In this document: piece by piece, positions 8,688 through 36,298 of the stretch | Numbering within the stretch: position 1 is the first letter of the stretch | How the letters are laid out: each line of letters starts with the position of its first letter | Assembly (NCBI GenBank): GCA_903861005.1 | Contig: CAIOSP010000056.1 | Coordinates: 1-36,298 of the forward strand | Reading direction: 5' to 3' | DNA from: an uncultured Pseudomonadota bacterium | Lineage (GTDB): Bacteria > Myxococcota_A > UBA796 > GCA-2862545 | DNA length: 36,298 bases | Made by a program: the position numbers and the translations under genes | Notes under the pieces: generated by a model | The model's input: the letters and a program-made list of their open reading frames with translations, nothing else | The model's database searches: none | What the model was told of the DNA's origin: nothing

Positions 8688-9470
8688 ATGTCAAACCGCC
8701 CGCACACCTCCACCGCCGCGGCATGCAGCTCGCCCCTGCGTCCAGCTCTCCCCGCGCTCCTCGCCGCCCTGCACGGATGCGCGCTCGCCGAACCGCCGAC
8801 TTGCACCCCAGAGGCTGACACGGCGTGCTTCGTCGGCGCGTTTCGATCGCTGCTCGGTCAGCCGATGGACAGCGTGGAGGTCTGCACGCCCGATCTACCG
8901 GACGTGCCATGCACCACAACCGGGCCGGACGGGACGTGGCGGCTCCCAGGCCTGCCGCGCGACACCGACGTCGTCGTCACCGCCTCGCACGAGGGCACGG
9001 TGGAGACCGTCTTCCCCCAGTCGACGACGTTGGATTGGTACGACTGGTACAAGGTGATGGTCCCGCTCTCGATCATGAACACCAACGCCTCCAATGTCGG
9101 CGCCACGCTCGACCCGGCGCGTGGGAACATCCTGTTCATCGTCTGGGAGGGCTTGAACCTCGACGGCGTGGACACCGCGCGCGTACCCGACGTCACGGTC
9201 CGCTCCCTCAGCGGCGAGGGCGCAGTGTTCTACTCCAGCTCGATCGGCCTCGCGTCCGCGAAGGCCGAGGCCACGACCTCCAACGGATCCGGCGGCGTGC
9301 TCAACCTCACGCCGGGCGTTCACGAGCTCGAGTTCACCGCGCCGGGCGGCCCATGCTCCGAGCCGATGTTCCACTGGTCCTACACAAGCCCGAACGTGAT
9401 CCCTGTGCCGGTGCTGGCCGGACACACGACCGCGATCGACGTGCTCTGTCCGACTCAGGACGGCGGCTGA
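8688..9470 (+). CDS. Lipoprotein with regulatory-like beta-sandwich domain
   Basis: The product is 260 residues. The N-terminus (Ser/Thr-rich, then PALPALLAALHGC) reads as a lipoprotein signal with lipobox LHGC. The next region resembles a carboxypeptidase-regulatory-like (Ig-type) domain: a start with ACFVGAF, then TTTGPDGTWRLPGLPRDTDVVVTA, the usual GxxxTDxxGxYxLxGLP pattern. The remainder (about 120-260) is beta-rich with no family I recognise. It is probably an outer-membrane-anchored surface protein. Its 3' end overlaps the convergent metallo-hydrolase gene by 16 nt. Confidence 0.7.
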   Translation: MSNRPHTSTAAACSSPLRPALPALLAALHGCALAEPPTCTPEADTACFVGAFRSLLGQPMDSVEVCTPDLPDVPCTTTGPDGTWRLPGLPRDTDVVVTASHEGTVETVFPQSTTLDWYDWYKVMVPLSIMNTNASNVGATLDPARGNILFIVWEGLNLDGVDTARVPDVTVRSLSGEGAVFYSSSIGLASAKAEATTSNGSGGVLNLTPGVHELEFTAPGGPCSEPMFHWSYTSPNVIPVPVLAGHTTAIDVLCPTQDGG

Positions 9471-10474
9471 AAGCGGAAGCGGGCCCCAAACCCGGGAAAG
9501 AGGTACCGCTCGCCCCCGGGCTCGGCGCGCAGCGTCTCGCGCAGCTCTGGGAGGTCCACCTTCACGCCCTCGCGAGGGGCCTCGTCCACCGTGCGGAAGA
9601 AGTTGTCCCAGTGGCAGAAGATCACGTGTCGCGGATCGATGTGATCGAGGACCGACGGCGCTCCAAGCGCGCGGAAGTTGGCCGTGTCCATCGCGAGCAG
9701 CGCGACGTCGACACGACGCTCGTCGAGGATGTGCTTGGGCGCCACGCCTGAGGGGGGGCCGGTGCTGGACGTCTCCACGAACACCCGGTGCGCGATGGCC
9801 CCGTCGGCGTCGAGGAGGTCCACGAGCCACGCGGTGGTGTGCCCCTCTTGGTAGTGCGACGCGCGTACGGGCGGCTCGGTCCGGTCCTCGGTCAACACGT
9901 GGCGGAACAAGTGCACGCCGGGGATGTTGCACGGGTGTCCCGAGCGGATCGGCAGCACGCGGATCCGGCCGTCCGCGAGCAGGATGGGCGCGCCGTCTTC
10001 GGTGGGCGAAGCGAGTCGATCATCCACGAGCGCCCACGGACGCTCGAGGTGCAAGGGCGCGAAGATGTGGGCCACCGAGGCGTCGCCGCACAGCACCGCG
10101 TCGGCGTGCAAGTGAGGCACGACCACCGGAAGGTCGAGGCAATGGTCGTAGTGGCCGTGCCCGATCAGCACCGCGCGCACGTCTCCCATTCCCGCGACGA
10201 ACGGCGCTGAGACGCTGGGGTCCGGATGGGTCCGGCTAAACGCCACCCTAGGAAATCGGTCGCGGGTGAAGAAGGGATCGGTGAGCACGCCGAGCCCGCG
10301 CCAGCGGAAGACGAACGCCGCGACCCCGAAGAAGGACACGTCGAGCTCGTCCCCCTCGTCCGCGCCGAGTGGCCCCCAACCATCGAACGGGAACGTCGCG
10401 AGGGGCGCTCCGCAGGCACTGGCCGCCACGGCCGCTAAGCCCGAGACCAAGATCGCGCGACGACTCACGGACAC
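9455..10474 (-). CDS. Metallo-beta-lactamase-fold hydrolase, Tat/lipoprotein signal
   Basis: The fold resembles UlaG/NAPE-PLD-type metallo-hydrolases. After the signal come DVSFFGVAAFVFRW, VLTDPFFTRD (first strand pair), the metal motif HGHYDH, a SGHPCN segment with a further His, and EGHTTAWLV; a late HWDNFF may supply the last histidine. Lipid, sugar-phosphate or phosphodiester substrates are all possible. The N-terminus shows SRRAIL followed by a hydrophobic stretch and AASAC, so export by Tat and lipidation are both suggested. GTG 10474 is preferred (GGAGG 5 nt upstream, just before the twin Arg); the frame extends to 10528 but adds a non-signal stretch. Length about 339 residues. Confidence 0.75.
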   Translation of the reverse strand: MSVSRRAILVSGLAAVAASACGAPLATFPFDGWGPLGADEGDELDVSFFGVAAFVFRWRGLGVLTDPFFTRDRFPRVAFSRTHPDPSVSAPFVAGMGDVRAVLIGHGHYDHCLDLPVVVPHLHADAVLCGDASVAHIFAPLHLERPWALVDDRLASPTEDGAPILLADGRIRVLPIRSGHPCNIPGVHLFRHVLTEDRTEPPVRASHYQEGHTTAWLVDLLDADGAIAHRVFVETSSTGPPSGVAPKHILDERRVDVALLAMDTANFRALGAPSVLDHIDPRHVIFCHWDNFFRTVDEAPREGVKVDLPELRETLRAEPGGERYLFPGFGARFRFQPPS

Positions 10475-10526
10475 GAGGGCCTCCAAGGGGCGCGTGGCAA
10501 CTTCAGAGAAAACGCCCCTCGCCGAC

Positions 10527-10536
10527 AAGCTACCAC
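10527..10536 (-). promoter_or_regulatory. Candidate extended -10 box (GTGGTAGCTT)
   Basis: On the minus strand GTGGTAGCTT lies about 55 nt before the GTG of the metallo-hydrolase gene. TGGTAGCTT fits an extended -10 (TGnTAnnnT). The same GTGGTAG core precedes other genes here (31048, 15353). No clear -35 is visible. Confidence 0.25.
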
Positions 10537-10606
10537 AGCCCGCGGCACTCCCACCACGAACGCGCAGAAGCGGCCGTGTCGTGGTGAGTCCGGCGACGGG
10601 TTCCGC

Positions 10607-11452
10607 TCACGGCGCCTGCGCGTCCACGCCCTCGTAGATGAACACAGTCTGCGCCTCGAACGCGAGCGTCGCGCTCATGTGGGTGCACGTCGCGCCGCCG
10701 TCCAACGAGATGTCGGCCTTCTGGAACAACACGGTCTCGAGCACGCCCAGCAGCTGCGTGCCGATGCCACCCACGTCGCCGATCTGGGACCAGAGGTCGT
10801 CCACCGAGATGGCGCCGCCGGCTTCACCGGAGCCGGTGCCGTCGTCGTTGAGGTGGATGCGCAGCGACGCGAGCTCAAGCGTGAGGTTGATCGGCACCTG
10901 GAAGATCGACAGCGACAGCGGCAGCGAGAGCCCACGCGCCACCACCGTGTGCTCATCCTCGTAGGTGGCGCACTCAGTCGTGAGCAGCGGGCCGCCGTCG
11001 CGCACCGGGAGCGTCTGGCCGGTCAGGAGGTGTCCGTCCGCGCCCACAAGCGGCGGCTCCGACGCGCGGAACACGTCGAGGCCAGCGCACTCGGTGCCTT
11101 TCTGTCGAACGCGAACCACCAACAGGAACTCGCCCGAGTCGACCGTCCCCTGGATCAGGTCCTCGAACGCGGCGCCGCCGACCTGCTCCATCAGCGGGAG
11201 GAGCGTGGCGAAGACATTGTCGATGCCTGGGCGACCGTCGGGATCGACGTAGTCGTTGAACCCGCACGCGCCATCCACGCCGTCGAGGTCGAAGCCGCGG
11301 GCGACGCCGTCTGGTGTGGCGCGCGCGAAGTCGAGCACGTCCATGGCGCCGACCCACTCCGTGGCGGCCCCCGACGCCGCGTCGGTGTCGTCGTCGTGCG
11401 CGCTCGGCGCGGTGCAGCCAATCGTCAGAAGCAAGGGTAGGACGTGTCTCAT
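10607..11452 (-). CDS. Lipoprotein, last gene of the DUF1592/DUF1552 operon
   Basis: Not recognised. The product is 281 residues with a short signal and lipobox (LLTIGC), then an acidic HDDDTD linker. The body is beta-rich: CGFNDYVDPDGRPGIDN looks like a calcium-type Asp loop, and later come repeated SLSLSIFQVPINLTLEL strands. Cysteines occur singly and could form exported disulfides. Its ATG overlaps the stop of the DUF1552 gene (ATGA), so it is translationally coupled to the pair and probably acts with it at the cell surface; this functional link is inference. Confidence 0.75.
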   Translation of the reverse strand: MRHVLPLLLTIGCTAPSAHDDDTDAASGAATEWVGAMDVLDFARATPDGVARGFDLDGVDGACGFNDYVDPDGRPGIDNVFATLLPLMEQVGGAAFEDLIQGTVDSGEFLLVVRVRQKGTECAGLDVFRASEPPLVGADGHLLTGQTLPVRDGGPLLTTECATYEDEHTVVARGLSLPLSLSIFQVPINLTLELASLRIHLNDDGTGSGEAGGAISVDDLWSQIGDVGGIGTQLLGVLETVLFQKADISLDGGATCTHMSATLAFEAQTVFIYEGVDAQAP

Positions 11453-12750
11453 GCCTCAAGCTCTCCAATGCTCTCGGTTTCCATGCAATCGTCCTCGCCG
11501 AACGAGGCCGCCCGAACCCCGACCGCGCGCATCAACGTGAGCGGGATGGCCGCCGCGCTCGCCCCGACCTCAGACCGCACGTGAATGCCGGTGCGAAGTG
11601 CGCCGTTGGCGCCGCCCGCGATCATCGTCGGAAACTCATCCAACGCGTGCAGGCGGCCGAGCGACACGTCCGACGAGCACAGCAGCGCGCAGTGATCGAG
11701 TAGGGTGCCGTCACCCTCGGGCACAGCGCGGAGCGCGTCGAGGAACAGCGCGAGCTGCTCCATGATCTGCAGGACACACTCCTGCACGCCGGGCTGATCG
11801 CCGAGCTCGTCATGCGTCATCCGGTGGTGCCCGTCCTTCAGGCCGTCGTACACCCAGTTGTTGTTGTGCTCAGAGAACACGTAGGTGAACACGCGCGTCT
11901 GGTCGCACGCGAGCGCCGTCACCATCAGGTCGGTCATCACCGCGTGGCGCTCCTTGAACGCGGCAGGGTTGGACGGCTCCACGGTGGGCGGCACACACGC
12001 GTCGAGGGCGGGGGTGGGCAGCTGGAGCTGCGCGATCCGACGCTCGATCTCGCGGATGCCGTCCAGGTGCTGCTCCAGCCGCGTCGCGTCGTCGCGTCCG
12101 AGCTGACCCTTCAACGTCCCGAGGTGCCCCGTCACGACGTCGAGTACGCTCTGGCGCAGCGCGAGCTTGGGGTCGGGCGGCGCGTCGCTGCCTGGCGGAC
12201 GGAAGCTGTCGCCGAACAGGCGCCGGAAGAGCGCGGCCGGATCCGCCTGGGTCGGATTGCCAGCGTTCGGGCCGTTCCACGAGATCACCTGCTCGCTGGT
12301 GACGCCGCACTCGATCGACCGGAACGGGGTGGTGCCGCCGATCGCCGCCGCGATGATCTGGTCGAAGGTCGGCCCCAGCGCGTAGGTGCCGTCGCCGGAT
12401 CCACGGTTCGGATCGATCCCGGTCAGGAAGCCAAACTTGCCCGACGTGTGCGGGCTGATGTTCGGGACCTTCACCTCGTAGCCGGACACCACCGACAGCA
12501 CGTCGGTGTGCCGCGCGAGCGGGGCGAGGAGCCGCGACGGGGCCCAGCCGGCGCCGGTCGTGGCGGGCGTCCAGTGCTCGGGCACCATGCCGTTGCCCCA
12601 GTTGAAGTTTCCAAACCGCGTCGGGAACACGCCCTCGGCGGCCCGAGCCTGACCACGACGGCCAAGCGAGGGGAGGAAGGGGAGCGGGACAGTGATCAGC
12701 GCGCTGCCGAGCATGCCGCGGAGCACTTGGCGTCGGGACAACGGCTTCAT
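11449..12750 (-). CDS. DUF1552 family protein with Tat signal
   Basis: This family is widespread in Planctomycetes and Myxococcota and is almost always next to a DUF1592-type protein; its biochemical function is not established. The product is 433 residues. A twin-arginine signal (SRRQVLRGML, residues 5-14) is followed by a hydrophobic stretch and AxA before the mature N-terminus. Family features include RFGNFNWGNGMVPEHWTP, LSVVSGYEVKV, the HTSGKFGFLTG segment, SIECGV, HNNNWVYDGLKDGHHRMTH and the late LLCSSDVSLG. The His/Asn-rich segments suggest a metal-dependent hydrolase-like site (inference). Four-base overlaps with both neighbours mark one operon. Confidence 0.9.
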   Translation of the reverse strand: MKPLSRRQVLRGMLGSALITVPLPFLPSLGRRGQARAAEGVFPTRFGNFNWGNGMVPEHWTPATTGAGWAPSRLLAPLARHTDVLSVVSGYEVKVPNISPHTSGKFGFLTGIDPNRGSGDGTYALGPTFDQIIAAAIGGTTPFRSIECGVTSEQVISWNGPNAGNPTQADPAALFRRLFGDSFRPPGSDAPPDPKLALRQSVLDVVTGHLGTLKGQLGRDDATRLEQHLDGIREIERRIAQLQLPTPALDACVPPTVEPSNPAAFKERHAVMTDLMVTALACDQTRVFTYVFSEHNNNWVYDGLKDGHHRMTHDELGDQPGVQECVLQIMEQLALFLDALRAVPEGDGTLLDHCALLCSSDVSLGRLHALDEFPTMIAGGANGALRTGIHVRSEVGASAAAIPLTLMRAVGVRAASFGEDDCMETESIGELEA

Positions 12751-14375
12751 GGGCTCTCCAGGCGGCGGAACATCGGGCTGCGCACCAGGTCAAGCCAGAG
12801 CGGCTGAAGGCGCGCGTCCTGCTGATCGAATCGAGCGCGGAGCGCGTCCACCATCTCGTCCTCGCCGTCGCCGGGCGCGCGGCCAAGCGCGCGACGCACC
12901 ACCTGCAGCACCAGGCAGTCGGTGAGCATTGGATCGGCGGCGAGCAGGTCGGCCATCTCTGAGAGCCCGCGAAAGTCGACGCCGTCGAGCGTGCCGCTGG
13001 CGTCGATCGGGTAGCCGGCCTCGTCGTCGCGCCAGCGTCCGATCGCGTCGAAGTTCTCGAGCGGCAGCCCGATCAGATCCATGCGCGTGTGGCACGACGC
13101 GCAGGACGGATCCGCGAGGTGCGCCGTGACCCGGTCTCGGAGCGTAGGCCGCTCGGCGTCGGTCGCGGGGATGGACGTGTTCACGCCTGCCGGGGGCGGC
13201 GGAAGCGGCGAGCACAGGAGGGACTCCCGGATGGCCTGCCCGCGGAGCGTCGCGCTCGTGGCCGTGCTGTGGCTGTGGCTCGCGAGGAAGGACACCTGCC
13301 CGAGCAGGCCACGGCGCTCGCCCTTGGCCGGCAGCTCGATCTGCGCGAACGCGTCGAGGGATGGCGCTTGCACCCGGTACACGGCGGCGAGCTCGCGATC
13401 GACGAACGTGGTGCGGGTGGTGAGCAGTGTGCGCAGGTCCGTGTCCTTGTCGAACGCGACATACTCGCCGAGGCGCAGCGTCTCCTCGCGCGCGGACGCG
13501 CCGAGCGTCGCGCTGATGTTCGGGAAGAGCTCCGGATCCTTGTCCAAGTGATCCAGTGCGTCGAGCTTGAGGACGTCGGTCAGCCAGGCCCGCATCCCGC
13601 GGCGCGCCTCCGGCGACGCGATCAGGCGTCGCGCCTGCGCCTCCAAGCCCTCGGTGGTGTCGAGCTCGCCCGCCTCGGCGGCGTCGAGCAGCGCTGAATC
13701 GGGAGGCCCGTCGGTGATCAGGTAAGACAGGCGGGTGGCCAGCTCGAACGAAGTCCGGCGCCGCCCTCCATTTGGATCCGCCTCGCCGATCTCCGGACGG
13801 TAAAGAAAGTAGGGCGACTGAAGGACCGCGGCGATGCCGTACTCCAGCCCGCCCCAGAAGTCGTTCAGGGTTGACGCGGCGCCAGAGGTGACGGCCACTA
13901 GCGCGTCGACCTCTCCGTCCGTGACCGGACGACGCCACGCGCGCCGCGCCAGAGACGCGAGGGTGACCCGCGCGCAGTCCTCGTCCACGGTCGCCGCGGG
14001 CACGCACGGCATCCAGGCCTCGCGGCGCTCGGGGCTGAGCGCCTGGGTTGCAACCTCGTACGAAGCGACCTCGTACTCCTCCACGCCGCTCGGCGAGGTG
14101 GCCGAGATGCCCGCACCGAGCGCAGCGAGTCCGTCCACCCGCGTGTCCGGCTCCAGCGCGACTGAGAGCGTGATGCCCGAACCGAACAGCGCCTCCACTG
14201 AGGCCGCGTATTGCGCGCGGGAGAGTCGACTGGTGACCGCGGGGCCAGGATCTAACGGCACGTCGCCGAGATCGACCAAGGGCTCCGCCGGCGGAGCGGC
14301 GGTCCCGCAGGCCGACAACATCAGGACAAACAGCGCTGCTCGCACTCGGAGCTCCGGGAAAACCACGAGGACCAT
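12747..14375 (-). CDS. DUF1592/DUF1588-family lipoprotein
   Basis: This is the 542-residue partner of the DUF1552 protein. It begins with a lipoprotein signal (lipobox LMLSAC), then the DUF1587-like SRAQYAASVEALFG segment. Next is the DUF1595-like region (CARVTLASLARRAWRRPVT) and DUF1592 (YGIAAVLQSPYFLYRPEIG, LATRLSYLI). The DUF1588 region has RRGLLGQVSFLASHSH, AIRESLLCSPLPPPP and a CASCH motif (425-429) that resembles a c-type haem site, followed by MDLIGLPLENFDAIGRWRD. The C-terminal DUF1585 part has LVLQVVRRALGR. Only one CxxCH is present, so haem binding is possible but not proven. First gene of the minus-strand operon; the promoter should lie in 14376-14460. Confidence 0.9.
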   Translation of the reverse strand: MVLVVFPELRVRAALFVLMLSACGTAAPPAEPLVDLGDVPLDPGPAVTSRLSRAQYAASVEALFGSGITLSVALEPDTRVDGLAALGAGISATSPSGVEEYEVASYEVATQALSPERREAWMPCVPAATVDEDCARVTLASLARRAWRRPVTDGEVDALVAVTSGAASTLNDFWGGLEYGIAAVLQSPYFLYRPEIGEADPNGGRRRTSFELATRLSYLITDGPPDSALLDAAEAGELDTTEGLEAQARRLIASPEARRGMRAWLTDVLKLDALDHLDKDPELFPNISATLGASAREETLRLGEYVAFDKDTDLRTLLTTRTTFVDRELAAVYRVQAPSLDAFAQIELPAKGERRGLLGQVSFLASHSHSTATSATLRGQAIRESLLCSPLPPPPAGVNTSIPATDAERPTLRDRVTAHLADPSCASCHTRMDLIGLPLENFDAIGRWRDDEAGYPIDASGTLDGVDFRGLSEMADLLAADPMLTDCLVLQVVRRALGRAPGDGEDEMVDALRARFDQQDARLQPLWLDLVRSPMFRRLESP

Positions 14376-26760: not shown

Positions 26761-28254
26761 GTGAGCGACGGCGAGCCGGACGCGGGGGCGGGTGCCGCGC
26801 GGTTGGGCGCGCCCACCGGCTGCGGCACGCGGGCGGTCGCGCGGGTAGAGCCTCAACCGCGAGGTCGCGTGGCCGCCCCCGTCTCTGTCGAATCCGCTCT
26901 GCATACGCCGGACGCGCCGCAGGCCATGGCGCGCGTCGCTGCTTGGATTCTGGGCGCGATCGCCGTGCTCGCGTGCGTGGGCTGGGCGGTCGTCCACGCT
27001 TGGATGGATGCGTCCCAGCCCGGCGCGTTGTGGTTCGTGGCGCCGCTGTTCAACGGCGTGCTCACCTGCCTCGCCGTGCTAGGCGCGGCGCTCTGGACGC
27101 AGGCTCACTCTGCCTCGATCTCGCCCCGCGCGGCCAGGCTGATCGGCCTAGGCGCGGTGGGCGCGGGCGTCACGGTCACCGCGGCCACGTTGCTCGTACC
27201 ACCCGCGTGGCTCTCGCCGGTGTGGCTTCAGCAGCTGACGCTGCGGTCGGTCGACGCGATCGTGCACGCGCTCTACGCGGACGCGGTGTCGGACCTGTTG
27301 GTTGCGCGGGTTGGCACCAGCCTGTTCACGGTCCGGGTGCTGACGACGTGCTCGGGCGTCGAGAGCCTCACGCTGGGGGCTGGGCTCAGCGCGCTCTATT
27401 TGTGGCTCGCTCGCGCGCGGCTGCGCTTCCCCCGGGCGCTGCTGCTGCCGCCGCTCCTGCTGGTCACGTTGTACGCGGTGAACGTCGCGCGCATCGTGCT
27501 GCTCATCGCCTATGGACGACATGCGTCGCACGCGGCGCTCGACGCGTTCCATTCGTCGATCGGCTGGCTGCTGTTCGCGACCGTGGTGGGCGTCGGGATC
27601 CCCGCGGCGGAGTCCATACTGGCGCTGGCCAAGGCGAGCGGGGGCGAGGAGACCCGAGCGGCAAACCCGGCCTCGCCCTACCTTCTGCCGTTCATCGCGA
27701 CGCTCGGAGCCCAGACGACGCTGGCGCTGCTCAACGCCACGAACGGTCCGTGGGCGGCGGCGCGCTACGCGGCGGGCGTGGGGGCGGTGCTCGCGACGCG
27801 GCCGCTACGCTCGATCTGGGTGGGCGCGCGGTCCCCGGTGGCGATCGCGCTGGGCGTGCTCACCGCGGCCGCCTACGTGCTTGCGTTGGCGCCAACCGGA
27901 GCATCAGACGGTGCGCCGATCGTGGAGCAGGCGCTCCACGTGCTCGGCTACGCCCTGGTGACGCCGCTGGTCGAGGAGCTGGCGTTTCGCGGCTACTTGA
28001 TGCGCGCGCTGTCGTCGGCGCGGTTCACGTCGGTCGATTGGCGCCAGGTCGGTCCGGGCCCGCTGCTGGCCTCGTCGCTCGCGTTCGGGCTGCTCCACGG
28101 CGACGTCGGGCTCGCGTCGCTCGCGGGGCTGGCGTTTGGGCTGGCAGCGCGGTGGTCTGGCGGTCTCGGCGGCGCGATCGTGGCGCACGTTGTGGCGAAC
28201 GGCCTGCTCGCCGTGGTCGCGCTGGCCTGGGGCGCGCCCGGACTGATGCGCTGA
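26761..28254 (+). CDS. xrtE: Exosortase E/CPBP intramembrane protease fusion
   Basis: The 497-residue polytopic membrane protein joins two processing enzymes. The exosortase half carries the catalytic set: TTCSGVESL (Cys197), NVARIVLLI (Arg244) and FHSSIGWLLF (His264). The C-terminal half is a CPBP (CAAX-like) protease with EELAFRGYL (Glu405, Glu406, Arg410), FGLLHG (His446) and HVVANG (His476). This arrangement matches the exosortase E/protease type that in other bacteria handles VPEID-CTERM proteins. About 50 low-complexity residues precede the first helix; ATG 26926 (residue 56) could be the true start. No target with a C-terminal sorting signal was found in the window. The gene stands alone after the REC-EAL gene. 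Confidence 0.85.
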   Translation: MSDGEPDAGAGAARLGAPTGCGTRAVARVEPQPRGRVAAPVSVESALHTPDAPQAMARVAAWILGAIAVLACVGWAVVHAWMDASQPGALWFVAPLFNGVLTCLAVLGAALWTQAHSASISPRAARLIGLGAVGAGVTVTAATLLVPPAWLSPVWLQQLTLRSVDAIVHALYADAVSDLLVARVGTSLFTVRVLTTCSGVESLTLGAGLSALYLWLARARLRFPRALLLPPLLLVTLYAVNVARIVLLIAYGRHASHAALDAFHSSIGWLLFATVVGVGIPAAESILALAKASGGEETRAANPASPYLLPFIATLGAQTTLALLNATNGPWAAARYAAGVGAVLATRPLRSIWVGARSPVAIALGVLTAAAYVLALAPTGASDGAPIVEQALHVLGYALVTPLVEELAFRGYLMRALSSARFTSVDWRQVGPGPLLASSLAFGLLHGDVGLASLAGLAFGLAARWSGGLGGAIVAHVVANGLLAVVALAWGAPGLMR

Positions 28255-28351
28255 GTCGGGCGCCGGGCGGCGGATTGCGGGCCTCGTGCGCGCGCCGCCT
28301 GCCACGCCCGCCCGTCCGCGTTACCCGGGCGGCCCGAAGCTTGGAGCCCCC

Positions 28352-29371
28352 ATGTCGAACGACCTCCCCACGCTCAACCTCATCCTGACGCACTACCAGA
28401 ACTTCAACGCGCGCGCGCTGAAGTCGGCGACGGTGTCCTACTGGCGCCACATCGAAGGCGGCGGGAAGATGTTCTGGGCGGTGGCGGGCGCCATGTCCTC
28501 CGCGCAGCTGGGCCTGTCGCTCGCCCCGGCCATCCGTGAGGGCCTGATCCACGGCCTGTCCGTGACCGGCGCCAACCTGGAGGAGTCGCTGTTCCGCCTG
28601 GTGGCGCACCACGGCTACAAGGACTTCCCCGAGTACCGCTACCTGACCAAGCACGACGACACCGTCATCTTGGAGCAGGGCATGCGCCGCGTGACCGACA
28701 CGTCCATCCCCGAGGACCAGGCGTTCCGCGCGGTCGAGAAGGTGATGGTGCCCATGTGGCAGCGCGCCGCGGCCTCAGGCGAGCGCCGGTTCTGGCACCA
28801 GTACTTCTACGAGCTGATCACGGTCCTCGACCCCGCGATCTACGAGGGCGACCCTGAGGCCTGCTGGCTGCTCGCCGCCGCCCGCGCGGGCCTGCCGATC
28901 GTCGTCCCCGGCTATGAGGACTCCACCTTCGGCAACATCTTCGCGAGCTACGTCCACACGGGCGAGCTCAACGCGCAGATCGCCAAGTCCGGCATCGAGT
29001 ACATGGTCGACTTCTACGCGCGCTACCGCGAGATGTCTGAGGGCGCCGGCGTCGGCTTCTTCCAGATCGGCGGCGGCATCGCGGGTGACTTCCCGATCTG
29101 CGTGGTGCCGTCCATCCGTCACGATCTCCAGCAGGAGGCCAAGCCGTGGGCCTACTTCTGCCAGGTCAGCGACTCCACGACGTCCTACGGGTCGTACTCG
29201 GGCGCCACGCCGAACGAGAAGATCACCTGGGACAAGCTGACCGAGGACACGCCCATGTTTGTGGTCGAGTCCGACGCCACCATCGTCGCCCCGCTGATGC
29301 TGCAGGCGCTGCTGGAGTGCAAGCGCAACCCGGTGGCCGCCAACGCGCTGCTGGCCAAGCACGGATTCTAG
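28352..29371 (+). CDS. Deoxyhypusine synthase-like protein
   Basis: The 339-residue product belongs to the deoxyhypusine synthase fold, which in archaea and eukaryotes transfers aminobutyl from spermidine to a lysine of eIF5A. Family segments seen: LSVTGANLEESL (68-80), FGNIFASYVHTGEL (NAD-binding region) and FFQIGGGIAGDFPICVVP (237-254). In true DHS this last motif is GGG-x-x-K-(H/N), with the lysine that holds the intermediate. Here Ala-Gly-Asp follows GGGI, so the lysine is absent, as in a group of bacterial homologues. Bacteria lack eIF5A, so another polyamine reaction is likely but not determined. ATG 28352, no clear Shine-Dalgarno beyond GGAG at about 10 nt. Confidence 0.85.
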   Translation: MSNDLPTLNLILTHYQNFNARALKSATVSYWRHIEGGGKMFWAVAGAMSSAQLGLSLAPAIREGLIHGLSVTGANLEESLFRLVAHHGYKDFPEYRYLTKHDDTVILEQGMRRVTDTSIPEDQAFRAVEKVMVPMWQRAAASGERRFWHQYFYELITVLDPAIYEGDPEACWLLAAARAGLPIVVPGYEDSTFGNIFASYVHTGELNAQIAKSGIEYMVDFYARYREMSEGAGVGFFQIGGGIAGDFPICVVPSIRHDLQQEAKPWAYFCQVSDSTTSYGSYSGATPNEKITWDKLTEDTPMFVVESDATIVAPLMLQALLECKRNPVAANALLAKHGF

Positions 29372-33281: not shown

Positions 33282-34352
33282 CTACTGCGCCGGATCGACC
33301 AGATCTTCCCACAGGGCGTCGGCGCGCTTGCGGCCGATGCGGACCTCGCCGCAGAACCATTGCCACAGGGCGATCGGGTCGCCGCCTTCGGGCGGGAGCG
33401 CGTCGCTCACCAGCACAGCGTGGGGCTCGGCGTCGACGAAGCGGCCGCCGAGGAAGCGGAACACCTGGAGCATCTGGCCGTTGGCGTCGCCGTCGCCGTC
33501 CGCGCGCAGCGCGTCGCGCAGCGCGAACGCCACGCTGTCTTCCGCGGCGCCAAGCGGCGGCAGGATGCTGTGCACCGGCAGCTGTGCCAGGTGGCCCGCG
33601 ATGTCGGCCAGGGCGTGGAGCAGGACCAGATCACGGCCGTCGTCTTCCGCGGCGAGGGTGAGGGCGGTCGACACCCACTCGTCGACGCGGTCGCGGATGG
33701 CCGGGGTGATGCGGTCGAGGATCCACTGGAGATCGCCGCGCTGGATGGCCTCGGCCAGGGCGGTGGGGGTCATGGTGGGATCGATCGGATCGCGGGTGGT
33801 CTCCATGCCGCCGACCAGGAAGCGCGTGACCGACTCGCCACGGCCGCCGCTCATCGCGCGGCCCGCGCGCAGCGCCAACGCCAGGCGGAGCAGGGGCGGG
33901 ACGGGGGCGCCGAACAGCACGTCGAGCACGGCCGCCTCGGGCGCCATGCCGAGGGACTCCAGCGTGCGGCGAAGGTCCTTGGCCAGCTTGCGGGCGGGCA
34001 CCCGCGGGTCGACCGACATGCGCGTGTAGGCGCGGGTGGCGGGGTGCGCGCCGTGGCCGGTGCGGTCGACGACGAACCAGCCGCCGACGCCGTGCGGCGC
34101 GACGGTGACCAGCAGCGACTCGCCAGGGGGCCCGGGGACGACGACGGTGGCGCCCGATCCGTGCTCGCGGCCCACGCCGCACGAGGCCAGGACGGGCGCG
34201 TAGATCACGGCGGGTCCGCGGATCGCGGTGACGGTCTTGGCGTCGCCTACGATGCTGACTGTGAGCGGGAACCCGAGCTGGCGGGCGCGGGTGAGCAGCA
34301 TGATCCCTGCGGTCACCGTGCTCGGGCTGTTTCCGGTCAGCGTCACGTCCAT
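33282..34352 (-). CDS. Hypothetical protein downstream of KptA-Nudix gene
   Basis: Not recognised. The product is 356 residues. It lacks a signal peptide and membrane helices. The N-terminal half looks like an alpha/beta domain (DVTLTGNSPSTVTAGIMLL, LTVSIVGDAKTVTAIRGPAVIYAP, SLLVTVAPHGVGGWFVVDRTGHG). The C-terminal half is mostly helical (LQWILDRITPAIRDRVDEW, DLVLLHALADIAGHLAQL). It starts 16 nt after the KptA-Nudix gene on the same strand, so the two are probably one transcript and may act together. Codon use is like the neighbours. Confidence 0.7.
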   Translation of the reverse strand: MDVTLTGNSPSTVTAGIMLLTRARQLGFPLTVSIVGDAKTVTAIRGPAVIYAPVLASCGVGREHGSGATVVVPGPPGESLLVTVAPHGVGGWFVVDRTGHGAHPATRAYTRMSVDPRVPARKLAKDLRRTLESLGMAPEAAVLDVLFGAPVPPLLRLALALRAGRAMSGGRGESVTRFLVGGMETTRDPIDPTMTPTALAEAIQRGDLQWILDRITPAIRDRVDEWVSTALTLAAEDDGRDLVLLHALADIAGHLAQLPVHSILPPLGAAEDSVAFALRDALRADGDGDANGQMLQVFRFLGGRFVDAEPHAVLVSDALPPEGGDPIALWQWFCGEVRIGRKRADALWEDLVDPAQ

Positions 34353-34368: not shown

Positions 34369-35367
34369 TCAGGTGGCTTCGCCGTAGGGGAATGCAGGGG
34401 TCAGGCCAAAGCGCTCGATGAGCGCGCGGGCGCGTCCCATCGCCGGCTGCAGGCTGGAGTGGGTGACCATGTGGCACGCCTCAGCCGGGGTGAACCAGCG
34501 CACGGCGCCGATCCCTTCGCGCTCGCTGGGCTGGAAGTCGTCCATGGAGCCCTGGGGCGTCATCAGGAACAGGAAGATGGTCTTGAGGCGCGGCGCGCCG
34601 CCGGGCGCAAGGAACCCGTAGCGGATGTCGGCCACGTGGCGAATGACGCGGAAGGTGGCGTCGACGCCCATCTCCTCGCGGACCTCGCGGACGGCGCTGG
34701 CCTCGGGCGGCTCACCGGGCTCCAGCTTGCCCTTGGCGACCTCCCAGGTCACGCCCGAGCGACGGGTGACCTGGATGAGCGCCAGCCGGATCTGTCCGTC
34801 CGGATCACTCCGAACGGGGATCCCGCCCGCCGACCACTGCTCGGCGTAGCCGTCCCGAAGGTTGAGCAGGTGGCGGTCTGGGATGGGGGAGGACACCCAA
34901 AGGCCGGGCTGCTGTCCGCGACCAAAGCGCACCCCAGCGCGACGCGCGCGCAGCGTGTCGACCACCACCACGCGGGGCGGGCCGTCCAGGCGGTGGGCCG
35001 CACGCCAGGCGCTGTGCTCGTCCGCCGACAGGAAGATGCGACGCCGGCCGCCGATGCACAGCTCGCCCGCGGCGCGGATGCGGCTGAGGCCCGCCTCGGT
35101 CGTGGCGTGGAACAGGATGTCGGGCGGGTGGATGACCGGCGCCCACACGCGGATGTGGGTGCGGGTGACCTCAAAGCCCCGCGTGGACTGCGTCACGCCG
35201 TAGACGTGCTCGGAGCAGACCTGGATCTGCAGCACCTGCTGCATCACGTGGACCAGCTGATCGATCGGGGCCCAGCCGTCCTCATCCACCGACAGACGTG
35301 CCGGGGCAGGCTCGCGCAGCAGCTGCTGGATCGTGTCTGCGAGCAGAGCGTGATCGAACGAGGTCAC
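34369..35367 (-). CDS. RNA 2'-phosphotransferase (Tpt1/KptA)-Nudix hydrolase fusion
   Basis: The 332-residue product has two domains. Residues about 5-175 resemble Tpt1/KptA, which uses NAD+ to remove an RNA 2'-phosphate. Matches: LLREPAP then LSVDEDGWAPIDQL (the LRH.P..L.LDE.GW pattern; Arg18 kept, His replaced by Glu19), ILFHATT (His87; HGT reads HAT), RIFLSADEHSAW and GLWVSSPIPDRHL. Residues about 190-332 are a Nudix hydrolase with a perfect box GX5EX7REUXEEXGU (213-235, Glu231/232). Part of the Tpt1 catalytic set seems altered, so that half may have another ADP-ribose-related role. The start is GTG 35367 without a clear Shine-Dalgarno. The divergent region to 35468 is about 100 bp. Confidence 0.8.
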   Translation of the reverse strand: MTSFDHALLADTIQQLLREPAPARLSVDEDGWAPIDQLVHVMQQVLQIQVCSEHVYGVTQSTRGFEVTRTHIRVWAPVIHPPDILFHATTEAGLSRIRAAGELCIGGRRRIFLSADEHSAWRAAHRLDGPPRVVVVDTLRARRAGVRFGRGQQPGLWVSSPIPDRHLLNLRDGYAEQWSAGGIPVRSDPDGQIRLALIQVTRRSGVTWEVAKGKLEPGEPPEASAVREVREEMGVDATFRVIRHVADIRYGFLAPGGAPRLKTIFLFLMTPQGSMDDFQPSEREGIGAVRWFTPAEACHMVTHSSLQPAMGRARALIERFGLTPAFPYGEAT

Positions 35368-35467: not shown

Positions 35468-36298
35468 ATGATCGACGCCCAGACGCCCCTCGACGCGCTC
35501 GCGAGCGCCCTCGCCGTCGCCTTCCCAAGCTGGGAGGACCGCGCCGAGCTCGCCCGTGAGGCCGGCCTGGGCGACGTGCAGCTCACCGGGGACGCGCTCG
35601 CCGTCTGGAAGGACCTGGTCGACGAGGGCAAGCAGCGCGGTCGCCTTGAGGCGCTGGTTCGCGCCGCGGACGCACGGCGCGCGGGCTGGCGCAACGCGCG
35701 CTGGACGCGGTTCTTGCCGCTGGCCGGCCTAGTGGTGGTCCTGGGCGTGGTCGCGCTGCTCTACCGCTCGACGGCGACCGTGGAAGACATGGCCGCCGAG
35801 GACGTCGGGACCGCGCGGACCCCGGTCGAAGCGACGGCCGCACCCGACGCGCTCCCGGCGGACGGCGCAGGCGGCGCGGCGTCTCCTGGCGCGTCGGCCG
35901 ATGAGGCGCGCGACAAAGCGAAGCCTTCCGATCGGCCGAACGGCGCGCCCGCGGCGGGCGTCGCGGCACCCGACGCCGCGTCGACGCCTTCGGCGGCGCC
36001 TCCGTCCGCCGCGCCCTCCGCTGCGACGACGACCAAGCCGACGCCGGTGGGTACCGCGCCCGCGACCGTCGCGCAGCCGTCCGTCCGCGACCCGGTGACC
36101 CCCGGCAACTGCGGCGGCAAGCGAGGCTGGGCGTACCTGGGCGAGACCACCGACGTGGTCGCGTCGGACGCGTGGACCGTGACCCGCTCGTACAACGTCC
36201 GCACCGACTACCCGCGCCACGACAACCACTACGCCATGGCGCCCGCGATCTGCGTGCTCCATCCGGGTGATGTCGCCGCGATCCCGGACGGTCCGACG
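35468..36298 (+). CDS. EAD1-like effector-associated domain membrane protein, partial
   Basis: The gene is open to the window end (277 codons, no stop). Residues 1-70 resemble the effector-associated domain 1 (EAD1) of bacterial conflict/signalling systems, a death-fold-like adaptor: LASALAVAFPSWEDRAELAR, then LEALVRAADARR. A single membrane helix follows (82-98, FLPLAGLVVVLGVVALL). Then comes about 110 residues of Ala/Pro/Thr-rich linker, and from Cys215 a beta-rich domain (CGGKRGWAYLGE, WTVTRSYNVRTDYP, ICVLHPGD) that looks like an SH3-type wall or ligand-binding fold. The adaptor would be cytoplasmic and the C-terminal domain outside. ATG 35468; the C-terminus is unknown. Confidence 0.7.
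   Translation, partial: MIDAQTPLDALASALAVAFPSWEDRAELAREAGLGDVQLTGDALAVWKDLVDEGKQRGRLEALVRAADARRAGWRNARWTRFLPLAGLVVVLGVVALLYRSTATVEDMAAEDVGTARTPVEATAAPDALPADGAGGAASPGASADEARDKAKPSDRPNGAPAAGVAAPDAASTPSAAPPSAAPSAATTTKPTPVGTAPATVAQPSVRDPVTPGNCGGKRGWAYLGETTDVVASDAWTVTRSYNVRTDYPRHDNHYAMAPAICVLHPGDVAAIPDGPT

Follow-up and report, generated by a model that had tools for sequence, protein, structure and literature searches.

A KptA/Tpt1-like domain fused to an ApnA-type Nudix domain is inherited across a bacterial order and paired with an uncharacterized gene family

The window analyzed here is a 36,298-nt stretch of DNA from an uncultured bacterium. Close to its end, two genes lie in tandem: one encodes a Tpt1/KptA-like half and a Nudix domain in a single chain, and the other encodes a protein of an uncharacterized family (Table 1). 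Sequence profiles and a confident structural model concur that the first chain consists of an RNA lobe, an NAD+/ART lobe, and a Nudix domain. The Nudix domain was recognized by Pfam PF00293 (residues 187–297, E 9.4e-14). The KptA half scored 24.3 bits against Pfam PF01885 (PTS_2-RNA), just below the cut-off of 26, which many relatives passed. The NCBIfam KptA model matched residues 16–168 at E 7.9e-11 (42.1 bits vs. a family cut-off of 239), CthTpt1 (6e3a) aligned to residues 4–167 at E 8.4e-11, and a profile of the fusion family matched this 6e3a chain at E 1.8e-24. An AlphaFold2 model of the fusion, built from 54 sequences, reached a pLDDT of 94.4 and a pTM of 0.81, and a Foldseek search with it returned two kinds of match, the Ap4A hydrolase 3i7u, which ranked best, and Tpt1 6ede. 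Profiles, model, and Foldseek thus all place the overall two-lobe Tpt1 fold in the window protein. The initial annotation, made from the letters of the window, had read a Tpt1/ART fold and a Nudix domain in this chain and an intact Nudix box; the fusion is real, and the box lies exactly where it had been placed. A mis-called start as the origin of the N-terminal part was rejected: an N-lobe profile built without the window's genus matches residues 3–75 with 45 bits.

Table 1. Features of the fusion gene and its neighbor in the window
Feature	Residues	Coordinates	Strand	Description and basis
KptA/Tpt1-Nudix fusion gene		34369..35367	(-)	332 aa, GTG start; Pfam, NCBIfam, and 6e3a matches; AlphaFold2 model
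RNA lobe (winged-helix lobe of Tpt1), degenerate	1-78	35134..35367	(-)	profile, alignment
NAD+/ART lobe	80-170	34858..35130	(-)	Pfam, alignment
Nudix domain, ApnA-hydrolase type	174-322	34402..34848	(-)	Pfam, profile, Foldseek, structural comparison
Nudix box, intact, GKLEPGEPPEASAVREVREEMGV	213-235	34663..34731	(-)	motif GX5EX7REUXEEXGU
Partner gene		33282..34352	(-)	356 aa; 16 nt downstream of fusion; uncharacterized family

Surveying genomes for the fusion and its neighbor, as the initial annotation had proposed, we found the fusion in 58 of the 63 genomes of the order, far more than chance would give, and the neighbor's family in 57. The fusion is nearly always present in a single copy and is usually the sole Tpt1-like protein of its genome. 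It was absent from the eight other genomes of the class, where the lone match (in G065) proved to be a stand-alone Nudix protein. In 71 more genomes from the phylum we saw no fusion; there, Nudix and KptA occurred as separate proteins, and KptA on its own was common. Phages, plasmids, and viral contigs gave no match to the fusion at the sensitivity used, and a mobile or viral origin was set aside on this ground. Presence in nearly all genomes of the order, together with absence from these class and phylum genomes, identifies the fusion as an inherited gene of the order and not a local accident.

We then compared the KptA half with characterized enzymes. The essential tetrad of CthTpt1 is R18, H19, R68, and R121, while H101 and R139 of Tpt1 contact ADP-ribose; in RslTpt1, R64A (equivalent to R68 of the CthTpt1 tetrad) slows step 2 by ∼210-fold, the H99A-T101A double mutation severely impairs the enzyme, and R137A costs it activity at low NAD+ (PMC6333775). 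Like the Tpt1/KptA 2'-phosphotransferases (CthTpt1 6e3a/6ede, RslTpt1 7kw8), the window protein has an RNA lobe, an NAD lobe, an HxT motif, and an equivalent of R139. Unlike them, it has acquired a C-terminal Nudix domain and lost several key residues. Its RNA lobe keeps R18, with S10 replaced by A, K11 by D, H19 by E (E19), and R68 by G (G64). R108 and R109 occupy the Arg121 loop, in which most of the family has its Arg one residue further on. The Arg-His-Arg-Arg tetrad is therefore incomplete, with two of four essential residues changed, in line with the modified chemistry that had been suspected. The NAD pocket is kept (H87 for Tpt1 H101, T89 for T103, and R126 for R139), and Tpt1 R140 is replaced by L127. 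Arg18, His87, and the altered LRE and HAT motifs are all as first described, with the refinement that HAT is common to the whole order and LRE is private to the window's genus. In that genus, the putative 2'-phosphotransferase activity is probably absent.

The order as a whole spans a range from near-intact KptA to the NAD lobe alone. Counted by eye, R18, H19, and R68 occur together in 25 of the 40 members that have an RNA lobe (nine of 19 in family f1, 16 of 19 in f2, and neither of two in f3). The Arg of the R121 loop is nearly gone from f2 (1/19). In the nine f1 genomes that keep R18, H19, and R68, mostly with an Arg at or one residue from R121, Tpt1 activity may persist, judging by these residues. 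The NAD pocket is more uniform: H101 is found in 51 of 56 fusion members and R139 in 55 of 56, the histidine being missing in the two genomes of f3, and the NAD lobe carries invariant residues specific to the fusion (D83, W121, and R140). The RNA lobe is absent altogether from 16 of 56 members, a distribution that well-supported branches force into three changes on the tree (one in f5, one shared by f4 and f6, and one in genome G016). No RNA-lobe remnant was found at the f4–f6 and G016 loci in six frames at E up to 10, which rejects a frameshift or assembly error as the source of the missing lobe. These members begin with a short basic stretch, for example GRRRGG before PPDILYHAT. In families keeping all three parts, mean pairwise identity was 56% for the Nudix domain, 47% for the NAD lobe, and 36% for the RNA lobe. 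The KptA half is thus a KptA descendant under selection.

The Nudix domain is the most conserved part of the fusion and is kept in every member, and G213, E219, R227, E228, E231, E232, and G234 of its box are invariant in 54 aligned sequences. The top 24 structural matches of this half were all ApnA hydrolases or MutT1/Rv2985 (Z 16.4–20.0), the best being 3i7u with a Z of 20.0 and an rmsd of 1.6 over 134 residues. A profile search likewise gave 59 bits for 3i7u, the best Nudix match, vs. 30.7 bits for the ADP-ribose pyrophosphatase 1v8i. With the ApnA hydrolases (Aquifex aq_158 3i7u, CT771 4mpo, and Rv2985/MutT1) the window family shares the Nudix box, the fold, the SAGG start motif, and a downstream Tyr and Lys, those of IRYGF and PRLKT aligning with their Aquifex counterparts; it differs from them in its fusion to KptA and in its family-wide motifs WEVAKGKLE, RYGF, and PRLKT. 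By fold and sequence, and among Nudix enzymes of solved structure, the Nudix half is closest to Ap4A/ApnA hydrolases and not to ADP-ribose pyrophosphatases. Fold likeness does not fix the substrate, which we can only infer. An ADP-ribose-directed Nudix is possible by analogy, since human NUDT16 removes the ADP-ribose that TRPT1 adds to RNA (PMC6582358), and the fusion protein may act on an ADP-ribosylated RNA end. NUDT16 and the archaeal Saci_NudT5 resemble the fusion in being Nudix enzymes that undo TRPT1/KptA RNA ADP-ribosylation or remove ADPR caps; unlike it, they are separate proteins, and the closest Nudix relatives found here are ApnA hydrolases.

Of the same 63 genomes, 37 have RtcB and 25, the window's genome not among them, have macrodomains; genus g19 of f6 has the fusion with neither. 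Presence of the fusion is independent of both kinds of gene; a role in canonical 2'-phosphate repair or with Appr-1''-P would lead us to expect closer tracking. An RNA-repair operon was likewise rejected, as the fusion does not co-occur with RtcB or macrodomains and its neighbors have no RNA-repair theme: named by eye, those in relatives include IleRS, purine genes, a secreted nuclease-like protein, and an aspartyl-protease-like protein. In many f1 relatives (L098, L099, L100, L101, L103, L104, and L114), the gene immediately upstream of the fusion encodes a secreted thermonuclease-like protein, probably as mere conserved synteny. A few members also have a separate canonical KptA, which in G020:C8 (38190–43370) lies 4 kb from RtcB and in G037:C97 (146181–148874) 2 kb from a macrodomain gene; the fusion has other neighbors.

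The gene downstream of the fusion had been put forward as a possible partner, and the comparison across the order bears this out. In the 55 genomes with both genes, 43 pairs share a strand and lie no more than 3.2 kb apart, 37 of them within ∼300 bp; two of the remaining pairs are divergent and ten are split between contigs. The fusion comes first in f1 and the partner first in f2, f4, and f6. The pairing survives although gene order differs, which suggests that the two are functionally linked; the proteins probably work together, as far as gene neighborhood can tell. Family f3, with only two genomes, has neither the partner nor the NAD-pocket histidine. The partner family gave no significant match to Pfam or to PDB sequences. 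Its model is confident (pLDDT 94.5), and a Foldseek search with it gave no match at E < 0.001. The N-terminal part is weakly Rossmann-like, with a weak likeness of the model to FAD-type Rossmann proteins (Z up to 9.0); this is too weak to assign the partner to that class, and the GxGxxG motif is absent.

Because the Nudix domain is always kept while the RNA lobe has been lost about three times, the fusion protein has probably taken on a putative new job. Our favored reading, to which we give a probability of roughly 0.45, is a Nudix hydrolase of dinucleoside polyphosphates or RNA caps that operates with a repurposed, nucleotide- or RNA-binding KptA half and with the partner. The Nudix domain would cleave a phosphoanhydride bond, either within a dinucleoside polyphosphate (ApnA type) or within a nucleotide cap at the 5' end of an RNA. 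The NAD lobe retains the histidine for the adenosine ribose and one of the arginines that bind phosphate, and would hold the substrate by its adenine-nucleotide portion or sense NAD+/ADP-ribose. RNA would be brought by the RNA lobe or by the short basic tail in its place, and the fusion would act together with the neighboring partner protein. More tentatively, we can picture an order-specific RNA-end/dinucleotide enzyme in which the KptA ART fold, as a binding or capping module, the ApnA-type Nudix, and the new partner family would form a self-contained cap-and-decap or alarmone-control device.

Other readings have to be weighed against these data. The fusion might be a one-chain switch for reversible ADP-ribosylation of RNA or DNA ends, its ART half capping a 5'-phosphate from NAD+ and its Nudix half decapping it. 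Tpt1/KptA enzymes do ADP-ribosylate 5'-phosphate ends, which NUDT16 reverses in vitro (PMC6582358), an archaeal Nudix decaps ADPR-RNA (PMC10663502), and the NAD-pocket H101 and R139 are retained; however, many members have lost or altered the residues by which the RNA lobe holds nucleic acid, f3 lacks the pocket histidine, and we consider such a switch unlikely. The proposal of the initial annotation, a working Tpt1 whose ADP-ribose product is processed at once by the Nudix half, fared worse and strikes us as improbable. It gains from the same proposal for the same two domains in Bodo saltans virus (PMC9503650) and from the several f1 relatives that retain R18, H19, and R68. Against it stand the three lineages that lack the RNA lobe yet keep the Nudix domain, the incomplete tetrad of the window's genus, the loss of the R121-loop Arg from f2, the lack of any RtcB or macrodomain link, and the ApnA hydrolases as nearest Nudix kin. 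Quite improbable is an NAD lobe turned ADP-ribosyltransferase or NADase with a different target, whether the partner itself or some other protein, and with a Nudix half that cleans up after it or reverses it, for although this lobe has its own fusion-specific invariants, can exist without the RNA lobe, and has the partner adjacent in both gene orders, the phosphate-cage Arg121 and Arg140 are displaced or lost, and f3 lacks both pocket histidine and partner.

A KptA-Nudix fusion has been reported from Bodo saltans virus, with the Nudix domain proposed to process the ADP-ribose product (PMC9503650). Going by its published description, it is alike in joining a KptA ART domain and a Nudix domain in one chain and unlike in belonging to a giant virus instead of being an order-wide bacterial gene; the available text of that report mentions neither RNA-lobe loss nor a partner gene (PMC9503650). 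In the open-access literature, to which our search was confined, we found no report of a bacterial KptA-Nudix fusion, and the one described here looks new.

The order-wide fusion bears on an open question: what KptA naturally does in bacteria, organisms without yeast-like tRNA splicing. A KptA-derived lobe has remained under selection across the order despite repeated loss of RNA-gripping residues, always with an ApnA-type Nudix. The range of forms provides a natural mutant series through which the question could be tested on a handful of purified proteins, and the pairing brings an uncharacterized partner family into view.

Several other genes of the window were also noted. Consecutive ORFs of 357, 281, 433, and 542 aa at 9455–14375 (-) have no NCBIfam match. 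The gene at 26761–28254 (+) is exosortase/CAAX-protease-like and resembles the exosortase E/VPEID system, just below the cut-off, and that at 28286–29371 (+) encodes a divergent protein of the deoxyhypusine/homospermidine synthase group that scores under every cut-off. Divergent from the fusion and cut by the contig end, the gene at 35468–36298 (+) encodes an N-terminal effector-associated domain, EAD1, scoring right at the cut-off (24.2 bits); a hydrophobic stretch and a Pro/Ala-rich linker come after it.
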